From assembly GCA_033439295.1 (NCBI GenBank), contig JAVTLE010000021.1:2170009-2234008 (forward strand): a stretch of DNA of 64,000 nt. The letters run 5' to 3'. The position numbers and the translations under genes were made by a program. This document shows, in pieces, positions 2,549 to 17,982 of this stretch. The notes beneath the pieces are model-generated. The model was not told the DNA's origin. It did no database searches and saw nothing but the letters and a program-made list of their open reading frames with translations. Position 1 is the first letter of the stretch. Every line of letters starts with the position of its first letter. This stretch comes from Deuterostichococcus epilithicus. Its lineage: Eukaryota; Chlorophyta; Trebouxiophyceae; Prasiolales; Stichococcaceae.

Positions 2549-5500
2549 ATGGGCAAGAAGAAACCCTTCATCAACAAGAGCCAGGCGACGACGTACAACC
2601 TGTTGTACAGAGCCAGCGAGGTAGGCGTAGATGGCGAGAACGCTGGGCCGGAGCGTGAGCTGGTCGACACCTCCCGCGGAGTAGGTATTGGGCGGCCGGA
2701 TGCAGAGGCGGCGGCCGCCGCCACCAGCAGCGGCAGCCGCTACCCGCCTGGCCACCCGCTGGCATTCCTCGAGGTTTGTGTGTGGGGTTGATATCATACG
2801 AAACATCGTCATTGCTGTGTTGCGCAGATGCTGTGTCGAACTTCAAGCCGGGCGGCTGGCACGCGGACATGCGCAATGCATCCTGGAAGTCTGCGTTGAT
2901 TGCCGTCAGGGTCGGGATGTCCGGTCACTCGCACAGAGCTCTCTGTTCGTGCCATGCTCGGATGGTGTGCACGCTATACTCTCTGCGTCGGCTGCGGAGG
3001 AACGCATGCTGAGTGGCTGTCGGCACTGGACGTAGTGCAGCTCGCGCCAGTGCAGGATGCTTCAGCAGGCGCTGGGCTACGAGACGTTCAGAGTACGCCT
3101 CATTTTCTCATGGAGACCTTCTCTCACCTGGCTCTCGCCTGTACAGGAACCGCGCGATAGTATGACGGAGGAGCGGCGGCGGGAGCTTATCGAGCTGGGC
3201 TTTCCGGATGACGGCTATGACTACCTGAAGCACCTGCGCGCCCCCGGCCGTGGTGGCCGCGCCAACCTGGAGGGGCCGGGCCCCGCCGCCGACTCGTTCG
3301 CGGGTGTGCTTGCCAACTACATGGCAGCATGTGCATGGCGCAAGCAGCTAGCAGCTGCCTAACTCTGCTGCTCTCCTTCCGAGCGTGCAAGTTTGATTCG
3401 AAGAGGGTCGGACAAGACGTGTCTCACATGTCGACGTAAAGCAGGCTGCAAGCAGGCTTGGGCTTGCATGGCAGGTCCGTCGGTGTTCGTGCCGTCGACG
3501 ACGCAGAACTCACGGCTGGAGGACGACACCAAGATCTACGACGCATCGCGGCTGACCATCCACCAGCCGGCAGCGGACGAGGTCAGCGCTGTCAGCGTTG
3601 TTTGCATCACCTTCGCCCGAAGGCTTCCCATGACCGTGTCGCCTGCAAACATGACATATCACACACCCCAGCAGCTGTGCACCCAAAGAGGCTGTCGCTG
3701 CGGACTCACAAGGCCCGCTAACAGCATTCCAAGCGCCAACATCCATCGATGGTCGATGCCTGTGATTGTGCAGGACTCAGCGGTAGAGGCAATGGGCGGC
3801 GTGTCGGCATTCTCGCGGCAGCGGGAGCGCATGCGGGGTCCAGATGCGGAGGAGGTGGCGGCCATGGAGGCGATGCTGGCGGACCCTCAATTCGAGGATG
3901 CCGAGGGCGACCTGGAGGACGACTTCGTGCTGGCCGCCACCCAGGTACAGGGGACAGCTCAGGGCTCAAGCTGTTGGCCAGCCCGCTCGGTTGTCTTGCC
4001 AGTGGCAGCAGGCGCTGCGTCGACTGTGGGACGACGCTTGCAGCGCCACGGCGGAGCAAAGAATCGGATGCCAGTCTGCAGACGACACGACGGAAGCATG
4101 GTGGCACTGCCCTGACCGATCAGCAGTCCCTCGAGGGGTTTGTCAGACTAGTTGCTAGGCAAGAGCCAATTCTGGGACGCAGAACAATTCTGGCATGTGG
4201 CAAGGCTCAACCGAACCCCAGTTGGTGCCTGACCGGTGCCTGCGGCCAAACAAGAGCGAGCTGAGCTCGAAAATTGTGCACTTCAGCGCGCTCCACCACC
4301 GCCTCGTGCAGGCCGAGGAGGCGGCAGCGGCGGCGGCGGCAGCAGAGTCAGCCAGCCCAGCCGGCGCCGCGGCCGGCGCTGCGGACGGCCCAGGCTTTGC
4401 GGCGCGCGGCTACAGCGACTCCGAGGACGAGACCGAGAGCGGCGCCAGCAGCCAGAGCCGCAGCGAGTGGGCTGCGGAATCCGGCGCCGGTGCCTCGCAG
4501 ATGGATGCGCGGCCAGGCTCCATTGCGTCCACGTACTGGCGGCCCGAGCGCTCGGACCGCAAGAACCTGCTGTCGACAGTCGACGAGCGGTGCGTGGCTG
4601 CATGTGGCTAGGGAGTGGTTTGTTTGGGAAGTCTTGGAAAGTATTGACCATGAGCGCAATGTGGAGCTGCAGAAAGCACTCTCGAGCAGAGAGCACTTGC
4701 GCGCGAGTGTACGTCTCAGCTGCAGGCGACTGTGCAGTGGAGGGGCAGGCCGGACCGCCCTCATCCGCACGCCGGCAAGGCCTGTCGTGCGTCCCTGCAG
4801 GTTTGAGCACCTGGCGCTGGACTACGACGAGGACGACATCGGGTCGCTGGACGAGGAGGACCCTGAGGCGCAGGTGCGCCCCGTGCTCTGGTCTGTCCGG
4901 GACTGCACAGGAACAGGCTGGATGTCGTAGCCTCAAACGCTTCTGTCATTGCTCCCGGCCCGGCTCGCTGGGCCATCGAGCTCTGCTTGACGTGGGCGCC
5001 CCTGCTGATGGTGATGAGGCCCAAAGTCTTCCGGCACAAAACTGTGAATGTACAAGGGTCCAACATTCTTTATGAGCCTGCTGCACGCAGGGCACCGAGA
5101 CGCTGGACGCCTACGGTGCGCTCATGGACGAGTTCCTAGCCACCAACGAGACGGGCGCGCTGGCGGAGGGGGAGGAGGCAGCGCTGCACGGGGTTGCCTA
5201 CCGCTCCACGGCGGACATCGCCGCCGCCGGCGCAGGGCCCGACGCGGCGGCCGCTGCCAGGACCATCGAGCAGGTGGCTGCTTGACTGGGCGGCCGCTCC
5301 TGCCATGTCTTCGACTGTGCCTGAGGTCGAAAGGCGGCCGCGGCCTGCCGAATGAGTCCAGGCTGGGCAGCCGAGGGGACCGTCCGACCATGCGTGCAGC
5401 GTGGACGCCCTGCTGCAGAGCCCGACATGCGCTGACACCAAAGGAGCATCCGCAGCGAAGAGAGCAGGCCTGTGGCGGCTTGCACATCGAAGATCGTGTG

Positions 5501-8137: not shown

Positions 8138-9562
8138 CGGTTGCCACGCCGGCGCCGACGCCCGCACCGACGCCAGCGCCCACGTCCGCGCCAACGCAGG
8201 CAGCAGTGCAGCAGACGGGCGGACAGCAGGCAACAGCGCAGCAGGCAGACGCAGTCCCGGTGGTGGCCACGGGCATCTATGCACTGGTGAAGGCCGTGCA
8301 CCTGGGTCGTTGCCTTTGCCCTGTAGCTGGCTGGTTGCGCAGTCAGCAGGCGTGCTCGCGTTGCTCTCAGCTTCCCTCACTGGCAGTTCAGAGGCTTGCA
8401 TCATCGCTGGCACGCCTCTGCCGGGAATAGGCTGCTGTTCCCTGACGCATTCAGTGACGATACACCCTGAAATTTCTGTGCCGCAGTCCGCGCAAGACCA
8501 GGACGACAGGGAGGTGGCCCTGTCCAAGTACGCTGGCCACGTGTCCATCGTGGTCAATGTCGCGTCGCAGTGCGGCTACACACAGCAAAACTATAAGGGC
8601 CTTGTACAGCTGTACAACGAATTCAAGGACCGCGGCCTGGAAGTGGTGCGTGCATCGTCACCGTGCAGCTGCATCAGTGAGCACATATGCGCACACGCGA
8701 AGCGCGGGGGTGGGGAAGGCGGCAAGCTAGGAGCCTTTGCCGGGCTCTCAGGGGAAGGCACAGCCTGGCAGCTGTGCAGGCACATGCACTGCGTCCAACA
8801 CCCTGGAGACTGCAGCTCGCGCAGTGGGCCAGCATTTAGATGCATTTGAAACTGCCAGCTGAGTCATCGCTGCGCTGCCCGCAGCTCGCGTTCCCGTGTA
8901 ACGCTTTCGGCAGCCAGGAGCCGGGCAGCTGCACTGAGATCCAGCACTTCGCGGCGGAGAAATTCCAGGCAACGTTCCCCATCTTCAACAAGGTGGGACT
9001 TGCGTGTGCTGGACAGGAGCCTGTAGTGGTGTGCCTCAGCATGGGGTGTGGCCAGGTTCAGCCCATTACACGTGGAAAGAACAGATGCAGTTACTGACAG
9101 CTGCAAAGGACATGTCCAGCCCCTGAACCTCGCAGATGAACTGGCAAGAGCCGACATATATCTCCTTGACGACAGGTGGAGGTCAACGGCCCAAGCACGC
9201 ATCCAGTGTTCAAGTTCCTCAAGGACCACACGCCCCTGGGACACGGCGGCGGCGCGGACGTTGAGTGGAACTTCGCCAAGTGGGTGGTCAACAAAAAGGG
9301 CTACCCAGTGGTGAGCGTCTCAACGCCCCTGCAGTGGGGCAGCTCTTTGCACAAACACCTGTTGCGTCCTGGGCAGCTGCACCGCTGGACACCAGACAGC
9401 CTGCAATCTTCTCCCGCACCCGCTGCGCCTCTGAAGTGTCCCACTCGCCACTGCGACTAACTTGCGCCTTGCTCTGTCGTGCTGCAACAGGTGCGGTATC
9501 CCTCGTTGATGGACGTGAACGCTCTGCGGGGTTGGATAGAGTACGAGCTGTCGCACGAGTAG
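6710..9562 (+). CDS. Membrane-anchored glutathione peroxidase with His/Gln/Pro-rich linker
   Basis: Eight exons join exactly in phase: 6710-6858, 7042-7162, 7309-7602, 7858-8286, 8487-8645, 8885-8992, 9176-9310 and 9491-9562, giving 488 residues. Residues 1-50 are basic. Residues 51-69 ([18 protein letters not shown]) are a membrane segment, suggesting type II topology. About 75-325 are a low-complexity linker: a His/Glu/Asp-rich part, a Gln tract, then (PTPA) repeats. About 327-488 are a complete thiol peroxidase domain: peroxidatic Cys360 in NVASQCGYT, Gln395 in FGSQEPG, and Trp451-Asn452 in VEWNF. The catalytic Cys is TGC, not selenocysteine TGA. The resolving Cys of plant-type enzymes (FACTRF) is Ala here (FAAEKF), though an unusual Cys400 lies nearby. 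It should reduce H2O2 or lipid hydroperoxides with thioredoxin or glutathione at a membrane. The fused N-terminus is unlike the usual 160-240 residue enzyme. Confidence 0.88.
8101..8136 (+). repeat. (CAG)12 trinucleotide repeat encoding poly-Gln
   Basis: Twelve uninterrupted CAG codons lie in exon 4 of the peroxidase gene, inside its linker, followed by Pro-Thr-Pro-Ala repeats. Length polymorphism between strains is likely. Confidence 0.95.
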
Positions 9563-11385: not shown

Positions 11386-14300
11386 ATGGCGGACGACGCG
11401 CCGGCGGCCGACTTGACGACAGCAGCGGAGTGTGTGTCGCTGACAGCGGACGACACCAGACTGGGCCGCGTCAGCACCTCGGCTGGGTCGTCCTCCTCGG
11501 GCAGGGACGACAGCGCGCGTTACGGCCACCACAACACGCCCAGCCCGCTGTCGAAGCCCTCCAGTCGGACACCTGCCAGCCCACTCAAGGTACGGCGGCA
11601 GGATGCAAGCGCTGCGCCAGACGTCTTACATGGCTAGTGTGGAGGTCAGCAGCGACACCACTGACGGTACATCTCGGTCCGCAGGAGGAGGACAGCGATG
11701 CGGCGAATGAGGTCGACTCCATGGATGCGCCCACGCTTATGGCGGGCCAGGCGCGAGAGGTGGCAGCGGCTTTCGAGAAAGCCAGGTAGGCATGTAGGCC
11801 AGCAGTGACAGGCTCGCATGGGCAAACTGCTTGCTCGAGCACGCAGCAGCCGTTACCGTGCACAACTTACGCTTGCCTTCCGCAGCTGTGCGCTTCTGCG
11901 CAACACTCCTGTGCGCGCACTCCCACACAACACCCGGCCGGAGCTATCCCGCAAGCCAAAACCCTGCAAGAGGCCCATGCCCTGTCTGCGGTGCAGGGCG
12001 GAGGCGAACCACGGGCGGCGGCTTACGAATCAGGAGTCGCTGGCGCCGCGCAACTTCCTGAGCGACGTACAGGACTGGAAGAAGTATTACGGCAACCACT
12101 GGACGCCGGACCGCGGGTCAGACGCGCACGAGCTGGAGCGGCGGCGGCTGCGGCGCCCGGCGCTTGTGCAGACGGGCAGGTCAGGTCATGTCGCGCTGCC
12201 TGAAAAAGTCTCGGGGCCGCCCCTCGCTGTGCAAGTGGCCTCACCAGGAACCTGGCGCGATCGCGTCATACGCTGCTGGCCAATTCACAATGGGGAGGTG
12301 TCAGTGGGTGCCATGTCACAAGAGCCGCACTGTTGCAAGCAATGTGAGGCTCAAAGCACCGCGCTCGATTTGCTGATGATTTTGTGCGACATGACGCAGG
12401 GCCGCAGGGCAGTCTCGGGTGCACTACACCTCCTCTGGAGTGCTGGCGTGGCACATGTGGCACCGAGGCAAGTGCATGAGAGGCAATGTTTGCAAGGGTC
12501 GACACTGCTGCCCGATGCTGTGTCGACGCCAATGCACATCCCATCGCAACAGACCCAAACTCTAGGTGCTGACATGCAGACTTCTTCCTGACGGTCATCC
12601 ACCAGAACGTGCGAAAAGCCGCCTGTCGTTCTGCGCTGCATCTGCATGGTTGTTGTACTGCTTCCGCGCGCAATTGATCTGACCCGGATGTCTGGAAGAA
12701 AAGCGGTGCTGATGCGTGCTGCTGGCCAATGCGCAGGTCTGGAAGCTGCTGAGCTTCTTTTCACTGCTGTACCTGGCCAGCTTCTTCTTCTTTTCGCTGC
12801 TGTGGTATATCATCTGGAGGTGAGTTCTTCTGGCCATCTCCCACATTGCTCAGTGAGACTCCTTCGATGCAGTGCTCAGTGCAAGGCCTCCAACAGCTGG
12901 TTCTCCGTCCGCAGAACGATCACAGATGCAGCTATGAACCAGTGGACAAAAGGTTCCGTTACGGCTGTCACACTGCGCATGTGCTATGCGACAGGGCTGA
13001 TGACAACTGCTTGTACGGCATCCGGGGCTACCCCATGGTTTTCAATCTCAGCGTCGTCACGCAGCAGACGATTGGTGCGCCGCATGACCGCCGCTCCCTG
13101 CCCGGTCTGCGCTAAATCACATCCGGCTGTGTGCGTCCTCGCTCCCTAAGCCCTGCAAGCAGCTCCCCAGCATATGCCTGCCCCCCGCCCCCCCTCTCTC
13201 TTCACAACTTCCTCCTCCTTCCCGGGCCATGTCCTCGTGGAGTTCGTTGGACTTTGAACTGGCCGTTCTCAAACAGCCAAAGCACCGCCGCCCTGCAGGC
13301 TACGGCAACAGCGGGCCCAACAACTGCGCGTGGGCCAGCGTGGTGCTGGTGGTGCAGACCATCTTCGGGCTGCTGCTGGACGCGATCACCATCGGCGTGC
13401 TGTTTGCGCGCATCTCGCACCCGCAGCAGCGGGCGCGGTCCATCTTCATGTCAGAGACGGCGGTCATCGCCCGCCGTGACGGCATCCTGAAGCTCATGTT
13501 CCGCATCGCCGACATCAAGACCACGCAGGTGTGCCAGGGGCAAACTGCCACGCTGTTGTATCCGAACCGCTGAGCAGCAGTCGGAAGTTGACCGGCAGGG
13601 ACTCTGTGCAGGGCGCTGGCGACTGCAGGCGAGGCCGGCATCGTCAGTGCTGAGCAGCATGGCGTCGGATGTATGCATCTTGAATTACACGAGTGTCGTT
13701 TGCCGCAGGTGGTGGAGCCGAAGGTGCGAGCCTACCTGTACACCTGGGGCGACGGCCGCCACACAGGTGACCGCACCTGCACCATGTGTTGATTGGGCAT
13801 GCTTGCACATGCCATGTGTGTGTTACTGGCCACACCAGCGCTCATGCAACCACAGGACTTTGCAGGGCGTGCACAGCACCGGAGGGGGCAGCCTTCCCGA
13901 TAACGAACGCTATTGCATAAGTGATGAATCCATAATGATTCGATGCACCGTCATATGCATCAAATGGTTTCTTTACGTGTGCCGCAGTGGAGGGCGAGTT
14001 CATCCCTGTGAGGAGCGAGGAGCTGGACCTGGGCAACATCGATGGGCTGCTGCTGCTGCCCATCACCATCGAGCACACCATCGACGAGCGGTCGCCGCTG
14101 TGCGGCCACACGCATGAGAGCCTGCAGGTGCCCTGCCGCCGCCGCCCCGCTGTGTCGTCCCAGCCTGCTTCGCCCGAAGAGACTGCAGAGAAGCTGCTGT
14201 TGAGATGTGGAGATGCAAGCGGCTTGTTTTGCAAAGCGACTGCTGTGACACATGCCTGGGATCTTCCCGCACAGGCTCTCAACGCCGAGGTGGTGATTAC

Positions 14301-17300
14301 ATTCGAGGGCACGACCGAGATGGGTGCGCTGCTTTAGCCTTGGGCTGCAGATGTCCCGACTCCAGACCGCATGACCTTCGCAAGACATGGCCCTGCCATG
14401 CCGCCGCAGGCAACCCCTTCATGTCACGGCAGTCGTACCTGGCCAGCGAGGTGAGGTGGGGCTACCAGTTTGTGCGGTGCATACACCGGCCCCATGGCGA
14501 AGACACCAACTACACTGTGGACACCGCCAAGTACGCCTCGCGCTCGCTCGTCCTCTTTCGCCTCCCTTTGCGCTGCTGATCGGGAGGATGGCAGGCACCT
14601 AGATTCGGTGGTGCACCATCGGGTTGTACCAGTGCCTCGTGCTGTTGGCGAGCACAGCAAGACCGAAGATGCTGTTCAGGCAACCGAACGCCGTGGTGGA
14701 AGGTGGAAGGTGACCATCCACCACCTGCACTCCTGCACCCGTGCAGGTTCCACCAGATCGAGCCGCAGCCGGACCTGCCGATGCTGCCGCAGGGCGAGCT
14801 GTCGCAGGTAAGCCTCCTCGCATGTCGCCCTCCGAGGGAGCCCACCGCTGCGGCGCGTGCAACCCTGCGAACCTGAGCGCGGCGTGCCGTGCCGTGCATG
14901 CGCCAATGCACCACTTGCAGCGAGGCTCCTCATCGGTGTGTGGTTTGCAGAGGCTGTGTGTTGAAACTCCTACCGGCGCACGCAGGTGGTGGTGTCCCGC
15001 TCCAAGCGCGCGGTGCCGTACCCCATCCTGGGCGAGAACACCTTCGTGCTGTCGGAGAGCATGGTGCTGACGGAGGACAACGGGGAGCTGGCGCTCATGT
15101 TCCGCGTCGGCGACACGTGAGCGCATGGTGCCTGTTGTTGCGGCTTGACACGTGTGTGCGTGCTGCATGCCGCTTTCTCGTCGCTCCCTCGTTCGGTCGA
15201 GGCGCTGACGCAGGCACTCTGCTGCATCTGCCGCTGCGTTCACCTCCTGTTCAGCAAGCTGGGGCCGCCGTGCATGCAGCAGCCGTTGCAGCCTGCCCTC
15301 CCCAGGTCGAGCGGACCTCCAGACCTCCCTGGCGTCAGGGCCGCCCCTGTCAGCACTGTCACAGCATGCGTCCTCCTGCACCGAGTCGACACCCGCACCT
15401 TCGCGTGTTGGGCTCCGATGTGCAAACCCTGACCTGCACTCTGCACGCCTCCAAATTGCAGGTACCCCAACCAGATGCTGGACCCCATAGTGCGTGCGTA
15501 CGTGTACCGCTGGCCGGACAACCCGTGCACCGCCACCAAGGACTACACGGTGTGCTACTGTCGCTGCTCGTGGCAGCTCGCCGCCGCCAGCCGCGCCTGG
15601 CTGGTTCTGGCAGCGCGGTCGGTGGCTCCCGACCGGCGCCGCCTGCCACGCCGGCCTGCGAACCCCCGAGCGGGCGGCCTGTCGGCAGCATGCTGCGAGG
15701 CCGGCTAGCTCCGGCGGGGCTGTGCCTGCACAGAAAAGCAGCCTACCTTGCAGTGCGCATGCTGGCGGGTGGGCGCTTGGTCGCCCTCTGAATGCCGAGC
15801 GGCAGGCCCAACCGGCCCGGCAGGCGCGTCCGGCGCAGCCGGCGCCGACTATGCCATTAATGCCCGAATGGGATCCTGCCTTTGATTCTTGGAACAACAC
15901 TCCTTCTTTAGAGTGCCCAGAAACACTAATTCGCCAGCCTTGATTTGGCGGCAGATCGAGGAGCTGGATGTGGGCTATGACACGGGCGCGGACCGGCTGC
16001 TGCTGTGGCTGCCGGTGACGGTGAAGCACACCATCACCCCCGCGTCGCCGCTGGCCTCCTGGTCCAACATGTCCGGCTTCCTCGCCGACGCCGACTCCTG
16101 CATAGCCGTCACGGTGCGCCGCGGCTCCTGACCGCTTGCGTTCATATGCAGCCACCGCAGCGGCTGCTGCCCTGCCAGGGTGTTGATCGTGTCTTGCAGC
16201 TCTCACCTGATGCTGGTCCAGGCTCCATTTGCCTAGACGCTGCATGCAGGACATCTCATGTGGCCGCGCGGGCTGTGATCAGAGCGGCCTTGCGTGCTAC
16301 TGTTGGTGCACTGTCGACCGCAGGTGGAGGGCTACATGTACTGCAACTCCCAGAACCGCATGCGCATGCGCATCTACAACTGCTTCAACGACATCAAGCT
16401 GCACCACCACTTCGCCCCCATCGTCACTCGCCCGCTGGACAGCCCTGACCGCAAGCCACGCATCGACTGGTCGCGCTTCCACCTCACCGACACGGACCCC
16501 GAGAAGGGCGAGGCGGACATGGTGCCGCTCTGCGCTCGCACGCTTGCGCGCCTGCTGCGCCTGCATGCGCAGAATCGCGTCACAAACGTCACCGCTGCAG
16601 CACTGCGCCGCTGCGGGTGCTGTGTGCGAACCCTGTATCTGGCAAACTTTGTCAGCGCCGCCCTCGGCTGCTAGCTCTGGCCCTTGTGGATCCAGGCCTG
16701 CATTCGACCAACTCTAATACTGCGCACTGCATACGAGTAGGCTGTGCATGCCGCCGCACCGTGAATCTTACCTTCTGAGGTGACATAACGTGACAATAAT
16801 GACAAACATGTGCAGAAGGTGGGCAAGCTGGGCAGTCGGTCGTCGTCGACGCGCGGCAGGTCGGCGGCCCGGATGGCGAAGACAGTCAGCGTCAGTACGA
16901 TCGCAACGTCAGGTGCGCTGTGCTGCCGCTGGCAAACCTGCAGTCCTGCTGAAGTAGGTATGCCTCCGCCATGTTGCTAAAGCAGATTCAGCTGGGACAT
17001 CAGGCGCCACCCACGTGCCATGCGCTTCTGTGGGAGCAGCTGCTGCTGGTGCATGTGGTTGCTAGCATCTCATTGCACTTCATTGCACAGCTTCCGCTAG
17101 GTCCGATGTGGTCGTGGGCACACACCATTCCACCCCCAGCCCGGCCATCGCAGAGGCGGACATGCACACGGACAAGAGCGATGACGATGGCGAGGTGAAG
17201 CTGAAGGATGCTGCCCCGACAGCGCCGGACCCAGGTGAGCACCCGTCGCAGGCTCTCCTTCGCAACGATCTTGACAGTGACGCACGCACCACGGCAGGGT

Positions 17301-17982
17301 CCAGCATTCTAAATATCTGATGCGATGCCAGTGCTTCTACGCATTCGGCCGTGTGCCAGGCCCTGGCATGCGAGGCCGGCGCTCGCAGCTGGCAGGCCGA
17401 CCGACTGTGCACTGCTGTGCAGATATGACGTCGATGACGTTCGAGGGCAGCAACCTGAGCAGCCTGCTGCCCCACCTTGACTCCCAGTCCACCTTCAACC
17501 GCCGCGACGCGCAATCGCTGCACCGGCGGCGGCTACCGCCCGAGGCCTACTACGAGGGTTCCTCTGGTAAGCTCCTTTACACCAGCCACCTGGCGCCCAT
17601 ACCTGTGGTGTAACCATGTGGTCACAGGGTGGGAAGCAGCTCCGGCGTGGGTGCTGCCGCTGTCCTGACCTCGTGCTGTTTATGCAACATGTTTCCTACA
17701 GCCATGCCCACTTCTGATGAGCTTGTCGGTTTACGACAGCGGACTTCCGGCGGTCGAACACGCTACCGTCTCGCCGACGGTCAGACACGCACCGCTCTGC
17801 ACTGCCGTCCGAGTGGCGGCATCCCATGGCTGCACAAGGTGCGACAGCGATGCATCGACGTGTGTCCACACATTCAGAGGACTCTTGCATCCATGCCATG
17901 TCCATTGGCGCTTCTGTTTACTGCTAAGCCTGGCTGCTACACTACTTCTGATGTCATGCCGCAGATGCAACCGTCAGCGTAA
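11386..17982 (+). CDS. Inward-rectifier-type K+ channel with two tandem cytoplasmic Kir domains
   Basis: About 20 exons join in phase: 11386-11589, 11685-11785, 11997-12184, 12580-12608, 12737-12819, 12926-13074, 13299-13528, 13709-13766, 13988-14127, 14275-14323, 14410-14530, 14747-14807, 14986-15116, 15462-15549, 15955-16113, 16324-16521, 16816-16912, 17091-17234, 17423-17566 and a last exon from 17702. The product is about 840 residues. It has a Ser-rich N-terminus, the slide helix (DFFLTVIHQN), TM1 near 175-200, a pore helix with filter TIGYG (250-254), and TM2 near 262-288. The first cytoplasmic Kir domain (about 290-470) contains ETAVIARRDG, PITIEHTIDERSPL and FEGTTEMG. A second, divergent copy (about 472-663) contains SESMVLTEDNG, VRAYVYRW, LPVTVKHTI and RIDWSRFH. 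A Ser/Asp-rich tail follows. Canonical Kir subunits have one such domain. The filter predicts K+ selectivity; gating and membrane are unknown. The 3' end of the last exons is uncertain. Confidence 0.9.

Follow-up and report, generated by a model that had tools for sequence, protein, structure and literature searches.

We report a gene for an inward rectifier potassium channel (Kir) subunit with two cytoplasmic domains in a 64,000-nucleotide stretch of DNA from the green alga Deuterostichococcus epilithicus (assembly GCA_033439295.1, contig JAVTLE010000021.1, positions 2,170,009 to 2,234,008 of the forward strand), referred to here as the window. The gene, at 11386..17927 on the plus strand, encodes a Kir first transmembrane segment (TM1), a TIGYG pore, a second transmembrane segment (TM2) and two complete Kir cytoplasmic domains (CTD1 and CTD2). 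Its 21 exons join into a single open frame of 851 amino acids (aa) without an internal stop, in the order long N-terminus, TM1, TIGYG, TM2, CTD1, linker, CTD2 and tail. The source genome comprises 46.8 Mb in 21 contigs.

Identity and structure of the gene

The Pfam scan of the spliced protein found two stretches matching IRK_C, preceded by one IRK transmembrane match (E = 3.8e-16); the transmembrane part with CTD1 alone gave 1.3e-35 and CTD2 alone 4e-15. The first-pass annotation of this DNA had proposed a single subunit in which TM1-pore-TM2 is followed by a pair of Kir cytoplasmic folds, and the IRK and two IRK_C matches, the single spliced frame and the predicted folds all bear this out. 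The five motif pairs that it quoted from the two domains are likewise all present on one splice-consistent open frame. When the two CTDs of the window protein were aligned, the score was 181, compared with a mean of 27.5 (sd 4.5, maximum 53) for 2000 shuffles, and the identity was 31.8% over 151 columns. Judged by the features of the Kir family, the protein has TM1-P-TM2 with a K+ selectivity filter (IRK match, TIGYG), a cytoplasmic domain after TM2 (IRK_C twice, fold matches) and, in CTD1, the membrane-proximal gating residues expected of the CTD following TM2, but it carries two CTDs instead of a single one per subunit. We treat the second CTD as making the gene a Kir variant and as no bar to membership in the family.

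All 20 splice acceptors are AG, and 19 of the 20 donors are GT; the sole other donor is GC (GCAAGT), in the intron after exon 4 (12467-12580), the acceptor of which is AG. The gene ends (ATG at 11386, stop codon ending at 17927) were modelled under the guidance of tblastn with the nearest homologue, P0001, and are predicted rather than transcript-proven. P0001 is 75.5% identical to the predicted protein over 826 columns with 17 gaps and covers residues 4-822, and the acceptor used at 12995 is the one that matches it. The extent first given for the subunit, 13299-16521, lies within the gene but begins inside the selectivity filter and misses TM1 and both gene ends: the TIG half of the filter (TIGYG at aa 248) is in exon 12995-13074, and YG begins at 13299. 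The positions of introns within CTD1 and CTD2, compared by eye, showed no obvious coincidence.

Table 1. Features of the tandem-CTD Kir gene in the window
Feature	Position	Strand	Basis or remark
Whole gene	exons 11386-11589, 11685-11785, 11997-12179, 12400-12467, 12580-12608, 12737-12819, 12995-13074, 13299-13528, 13709-13766, 13988-14127, 14275-14323, 14410-14530, 14747-14807, 14986-15116, 15462-15549, 15955-16113, 16324-16521, 16816-16912, 17091-17234, 17423-17566, 17740-17927	+	exon joining, P0001 guide
TM1 exon	12737..12819	+	protein from aa 196
Pore, TM2 and CTD1 start, two exons	12995..13528	+	TIGYG split by intron 13075-13298
CTD1, aa 294-451, six exons	13430..14752	+	Pfam IRK_C; family hidden Markov model (HMM) 278 bits
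CTD1-CTD2 linker, across intron 14808-14985	14753..15033	+	spliced model
CTD2, aa 486-648, four exons	15034..16482	+	Pfam IRK_C 4e-15; family HMM 216 bits
C-terminal tail beyond CTD2	16483..17927	+	matching tail of P0001 predicted disordered

Distribution among green algae

Two protein searches, one scoring 7992 candidates (the best 120 of its 127 matches were used) and the other 7999, together supplied at least 205 distinct proteins. These and the window protein, 206 rows in all, were parsed with HMMs built from the family. The transmembrane part and a second CTD of more than 110 model positions were found in 85 rows (84 homologues and the window), so the tandem domain that was to be sought in other chlorophyte Kir proteins does occur there. 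Among the remaining rows, the second CTD was cut in 5, an adequate transmembrane match was missing in 35, and fewer than 150 residues followed the first CTD in 80, which could not therefore show a second one. Only one single-CTD protein of the 206, P0156 from the bee Ceratina, had room for a second domain. Thirteen of the 80 short rows look chlorophyte-like (P0052, P0079, P0082, P0083, P0085, P0086, P0092, P0093, P0096, P0097, P0149, P0150 and P0152), the rest being animal, bacterial or unassigned single-CTD Kirs.

The tandem rows with organism names, which we take to be chlorophytes throughout, included sequences from Coccomyxa, Trebouxia, Symbiochloris, Elliptochloris, Apatococcus, Myrmecia, Botryococcus, Helicosporidium, Picochlorum, Micractinium, Chlorella vulgaris, Volvox, Gonium, Edaphochlamys, Chlamydomonas eustigma and C. 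incerta, Haematococcus, Sanguina, Tetradesmus, Ostreobium, Tetraselmis astigmatica and Chloropicon primus. The chlorophyte status of Tetraselmis astigmatica and Polytomella parva was looked up. A further group of rows (P0058-P0060, P0062-P0071, P0073, P0074, P0078, P0127, P0128, P0133, P0134, P0137-P0139 and P0141-P0143) is, we think, Mamiellophyceae-like, a label assigned in this analysis. No named streptophyte was among the matches listed, which does not in itself show absence from that group. As judged from these sequences, the tandem-CTD Kir is a widespread chlorophyte architecture and not the novelty of a single genome, and the doubled design looks like an old, kept feature.

Helicosporidium and Polytomella parva are algae without photosynthesis. 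Both CTDs are present in Helicosporidium P0012; the sequence of Polytomella parva P0148 runs through CTD1 and breaks off after the first 35 model positions of CTD2. Since the gene is kept in non-photosynthetic algae, it probably serves the control of ions or voltage in general and not photosynthesis.

As a separate observation, the CTD of P0099, a single-CTD Kir of 347 aa, was assigned to the CTD2 HMM (100 bits), and in the tree described below it grouped weakly with a nematode Kir (85/43).

A second tandem gene in the same genome

An IRK_C search of the whole genome, with 8 candidates scored, identified six places, four in the window gene and two on another contig (C5); the same search in 14 control genomes gave no match. 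Reading C5:248000-257900 with three homologues recovered pieces of the transmembrane part, of CTD1 and of CTD2, arranged in that order on a single strand, which brings the tandem-CTD Kir genes of this genome to at least two. The two differ at a TM2 position which we take to be the rectification controller D172 of Kir2.1: the window gene has Asp (near aa 273) and the C5 gene has Asn (L007, about 3403-3624). In animal Kirs, the residue at this position separates strong from weak rectifiers. Across 110 rows, a pattern search returned 41 D, 29 N, 19 E and 4 other residues (one a false match), with 17 rows unmatched.

The pair raises the alternative that the channels are mainly heteromers, in which the window protein with its Asp and the C5 protein with its Asn co-assemble and one tunes the other. 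The presence of two tandem-CTD genes in one genome and the D versus N difference would fit this, but both genes have an intact filter, so each could form a homomeric channel, and we regard a mainly heteromeric channel as distinctly improbable.

In a pattern search of 123 rows, 18 also showed a short W..xRSL-like motif close to the C-terminus, among them P0016 (716), P0045 (787), P0048 (713), P0131 (987) and P0135 (831); the P0049 match coincides with the end of CTD2 and probably has no relation to the others. DTWHSSRAL is present in the C5 gene (L007, about 9182-9286), and only a degenerate EWRHPM in the window gene.

Residues and predicted fold of the two domains

Residues were surveyed in 29 representatives using Kir2.1 numbering. 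Positions W322, G323, R312, 303 and 218 were taken as gating or lipid-contact positions next to the membrane. CTD1 has W322, G323 and an acidic residue at 303 in all 29, R312 in 27 and a basic residue at 218 in 26. In CTD2, W322 was found in 8, R312 in 5 and a basic 218 in 6, and Tyr occupies 303 in 16. The core of CTD2 is kept, with R213, P266, H271, S277 and P278 in 29 of 29, F344 in 27 and H345 in 26. CTD1 thus keeps the membrane-proximal gating residues, and CTD2 has mostly lost them. The window CTD1 itself has K at 218, E303, R312, W322 and G323, and its TM2-CTD1 linker, FARISHPQQR, has fewer basic residues than that of Kir2.2.

Kir2.1 positions 224, 255, 259 and 299 were assumed to line the cytoplasmic pore. 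The window CTD2 is acidic at all four (D224, D255, D259, E299), and the window CTD1 has a four-residue deletion across Kir2.1 255-262 that removes two of the four. An acidic second pore ring was rejected as a general rule, since among the 29 representatives 20 have an acidic CTD2 residue at position 224, 11 at 255, 17 at 259 and 15 at 299.

The predicted model had a predicted template modelling score (pTM) of 0.63, and 260 of its 828 residues had a predicted local distance difference test value (pLDDT) below 50. Because the structure look-up of this full model covered mainly residues 155-497, CTD2 was folded separately in P0057, a CTD2-only relative that lacks about 20 residues at the CTD2 start. 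From the full model, the P0057 model and the structure matches, CTD2 is confidently predicted to keep the Kir fold. Three Kir2.2 alignments of the full model (3spg, 3spi, 3spc) extend to model residues 620-621, into CTD2, which would fit a CTD2 strand lying alongside CTD1; this is a weak hint, and the pTM suggests, as another weak hint at geometry, a defined orientation of CTD2.

Origin of the second domain

A tree of 84 rows (30 CTD1, 30 CTD2 and 24 single CTDs, with Chloropicon left out) placed the CTD1s on one side of a branch with support of 99/98 and the CTD2s on that of another with 100/98, pointing to one old event. Since each clade contains core chlorophytes as well as Mamiellophyceae-like rows, the doubling predates the split between these two groups. 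The linker between the domains, compared in 99 proteins, was 30-36 residues long in 76, 49-52 in 21, 13 in one and 77 in one.

Proposed working of the channel and alternatives

We consider it probable, though by no means assured, that the gene encodes a tetrameric, K+-selective Kir subunit in which CTD1 serves as the gating ring while CTD2 provides a second, regulatory tier that biases CTD1 gating. CTD1 would be the canonical ring under the pore, with membrane-proximal gating and lipid-contact residues; because it directly follows TM2 and is canonical, pore opening and closing should fall to this ring, presumably under lipid control. CTD2 is taken as an old tandem copy, kept almost equally far from CTD1 throughout by a linker of some 30 residues. 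It would add four Kir-type domains to each channel and most likely packs on or below CTD1, biasing its gating. It is placed as a second tier regulating CTD1 because it is folded and conserved, its spacing hardly varies and most of the membrane-side residues are gone. The open spliced frame, the two CTDs with their predicted folds and separate clades, their conservation in chlorophytes and the residue loss in CTD2 are computational results; K+ conduction, the tetramer and lipid gating are inferences, and so are the eight domains per tetramer, the stacking and the new regulatory role that the first-pass annotation put forward.

A bolder version, which we offer tentatively and would not bet on, is that a two-tier Kir assembly arose a single time, early in the chlorophytes, with a coaxial CTD2 ring that lengthens the cytoplasmic ion path and senses a cytosolic signal, and that its design converged on the tandem-RCK ring of BK channels. 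The acidic pore positions of CTD2, in the window gene only, were taken up in this version.

CTD2 may instead be folded but tethered outside the ring, as a module for binding, trafficking or anchoring that does not act on the gate. Such a module could dispense with most membrane-side gating residues, and the long tail after CTD2, with its W..xRSL-like motif in some rows, would suit it. The near-constant linker and the pTM suggest fixed placement instead, and the three Kir2.2 alignments run on into CTD2; we judge a tethered module unlikely, while giving it real weight.

Several findings weigh against a conserved second regulatory tier derived from an internal copy. The loss of membrane-side residues is incomplete, G323 still being found in CTD2 of 19 of 29 representatives, and in most of the Mamiellophyceae-like rows CTD2 matched weakly, often in two pieces. 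The distance between CTD2s exceeded that between CTD1s in 435 of 435 pairs among 30 proteins (median ratio 2.03). That upholds the earlier remark that the second copy is more diverged, and it would also be expected of a decaying copy or a spacer without a role. The retention of CTD2 in at least 84 homologues with the transmembrane part and two CTDs, the five invariant core residues and the confident predicted fold speak against decay, which we hold to be very improbable. Lastly, the branch joining CTD1 with CTD2 apart from single-CTD Kirs had support of only 82/80, so that the second CTD may have come by fusion with the CTD of another Kir instead of internal duplication. Of the old duplication first proposed, the age is borne out.

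A further adverse point comes from transcripts. P0082 (GHRQ01016088.1), whose open reading frame (ORF) is labelled complete, stops at INLSR just before the end of CTD1, ahead of the linker, and is a possible CTD1-only transcript. P0092, named partial, stops at VDVAR in the same place, which corresponds to an exon junction of the window gene, and P0150 (514 aa, 267 member sequences) stops in the linker. We tentatively read all three as retained introns or cut gene models. That P0082 and P0092 both stop at this junction may also reflect a short isoform or an intron conserved at that site.

The ending of P0082 ahead of the linker could also be cited for two adjacent genes, or an assembly or splicing artefact, joined in one frame. 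The first-pass annotation had named a separate start before 14986 as the sign of two genes, but the linker exons splice in frame and the fusion recurs in algal proteins, with the same order in the C5 gene and at least 84 homologues. Transcript-derived relatives also carry both CTDs: P0125 is a TransDecoder ORF of GHRR01009961.1 and P0135 is from Tetraselmis astigmatica (MMETSP0804), both transcriptomic by their record names. The tandem ORFs of P0010 (608 aa in 1878 bases) and P0011 (605 aa in 1947 bases) nearly fill their contigs, as expected of mRNA. Given the in-frame splicing, the paralogue, the homologues and the transcript-derived relatives, the two-gene and artefact readings were rejected, and we give them practically no credence.

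Comparison with known systems

The window protein shares with animal Kirs (Kir2.1, Kir2.2 and Kir3.2; IRK plus IRK_C) the TM1-pore-TM2 arrangement, the K+ filter, a CTD of the same fold, the gating residues and the Asp at the D172 position. It differs from them in its second CTD, which was not found in any animal row parsed, in its long N-terminus and tail, which are predicted to be disordered, and in the four-residue deletion of CTD1. KirBac channels have one CTD and are more distant in sequence (best E 9.3e-18, compared with 3.5e-41 for Kir2.2).

The sequences are already public. P0131, 'G protein-activated inward rectifier potassium channel 4 [Chlorella vulgaris]', and P0041, 'probable inward rectifier potassium channel 2 [Coccomyxa sp. 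Obi]', have the same tandem architecture, and the public chlorophyte entries are named as ordinary Kirs or hypothetical proteins with no mention of a second CTD. Among the papers listed by a search of the open-licence literature, none concerned a tandem-CTD Kir, and the word 'tandem' does not occur in the retrieved part of PMC12332018. The architecture is thus apparently undescribed in that literature, which is weak evidence of absence because most subscription papers lie outside its scope.

BK/Slo channels carry tandem RCK1-RCK2, with two cytoplasmic gating domains per subunit and eight per tetramer. They provide the nearest analogy, in design only, since the fold is different: the Pfam scan at E up to 1 found no RCK-type family in the window protein (only IRK, IRK_C and a weak Ion_trans_2), and no voltage-sensor segments were seen in the predicted model. 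The Kir channels known to us couple a single cytoplasmic ring to the pore. With another domain of that fold present since early in chlorophyte evolution, these algae would offer a natural experiment in the rewiring of Kir gating, and the two paralogues in one genome allow the comparison to be made.

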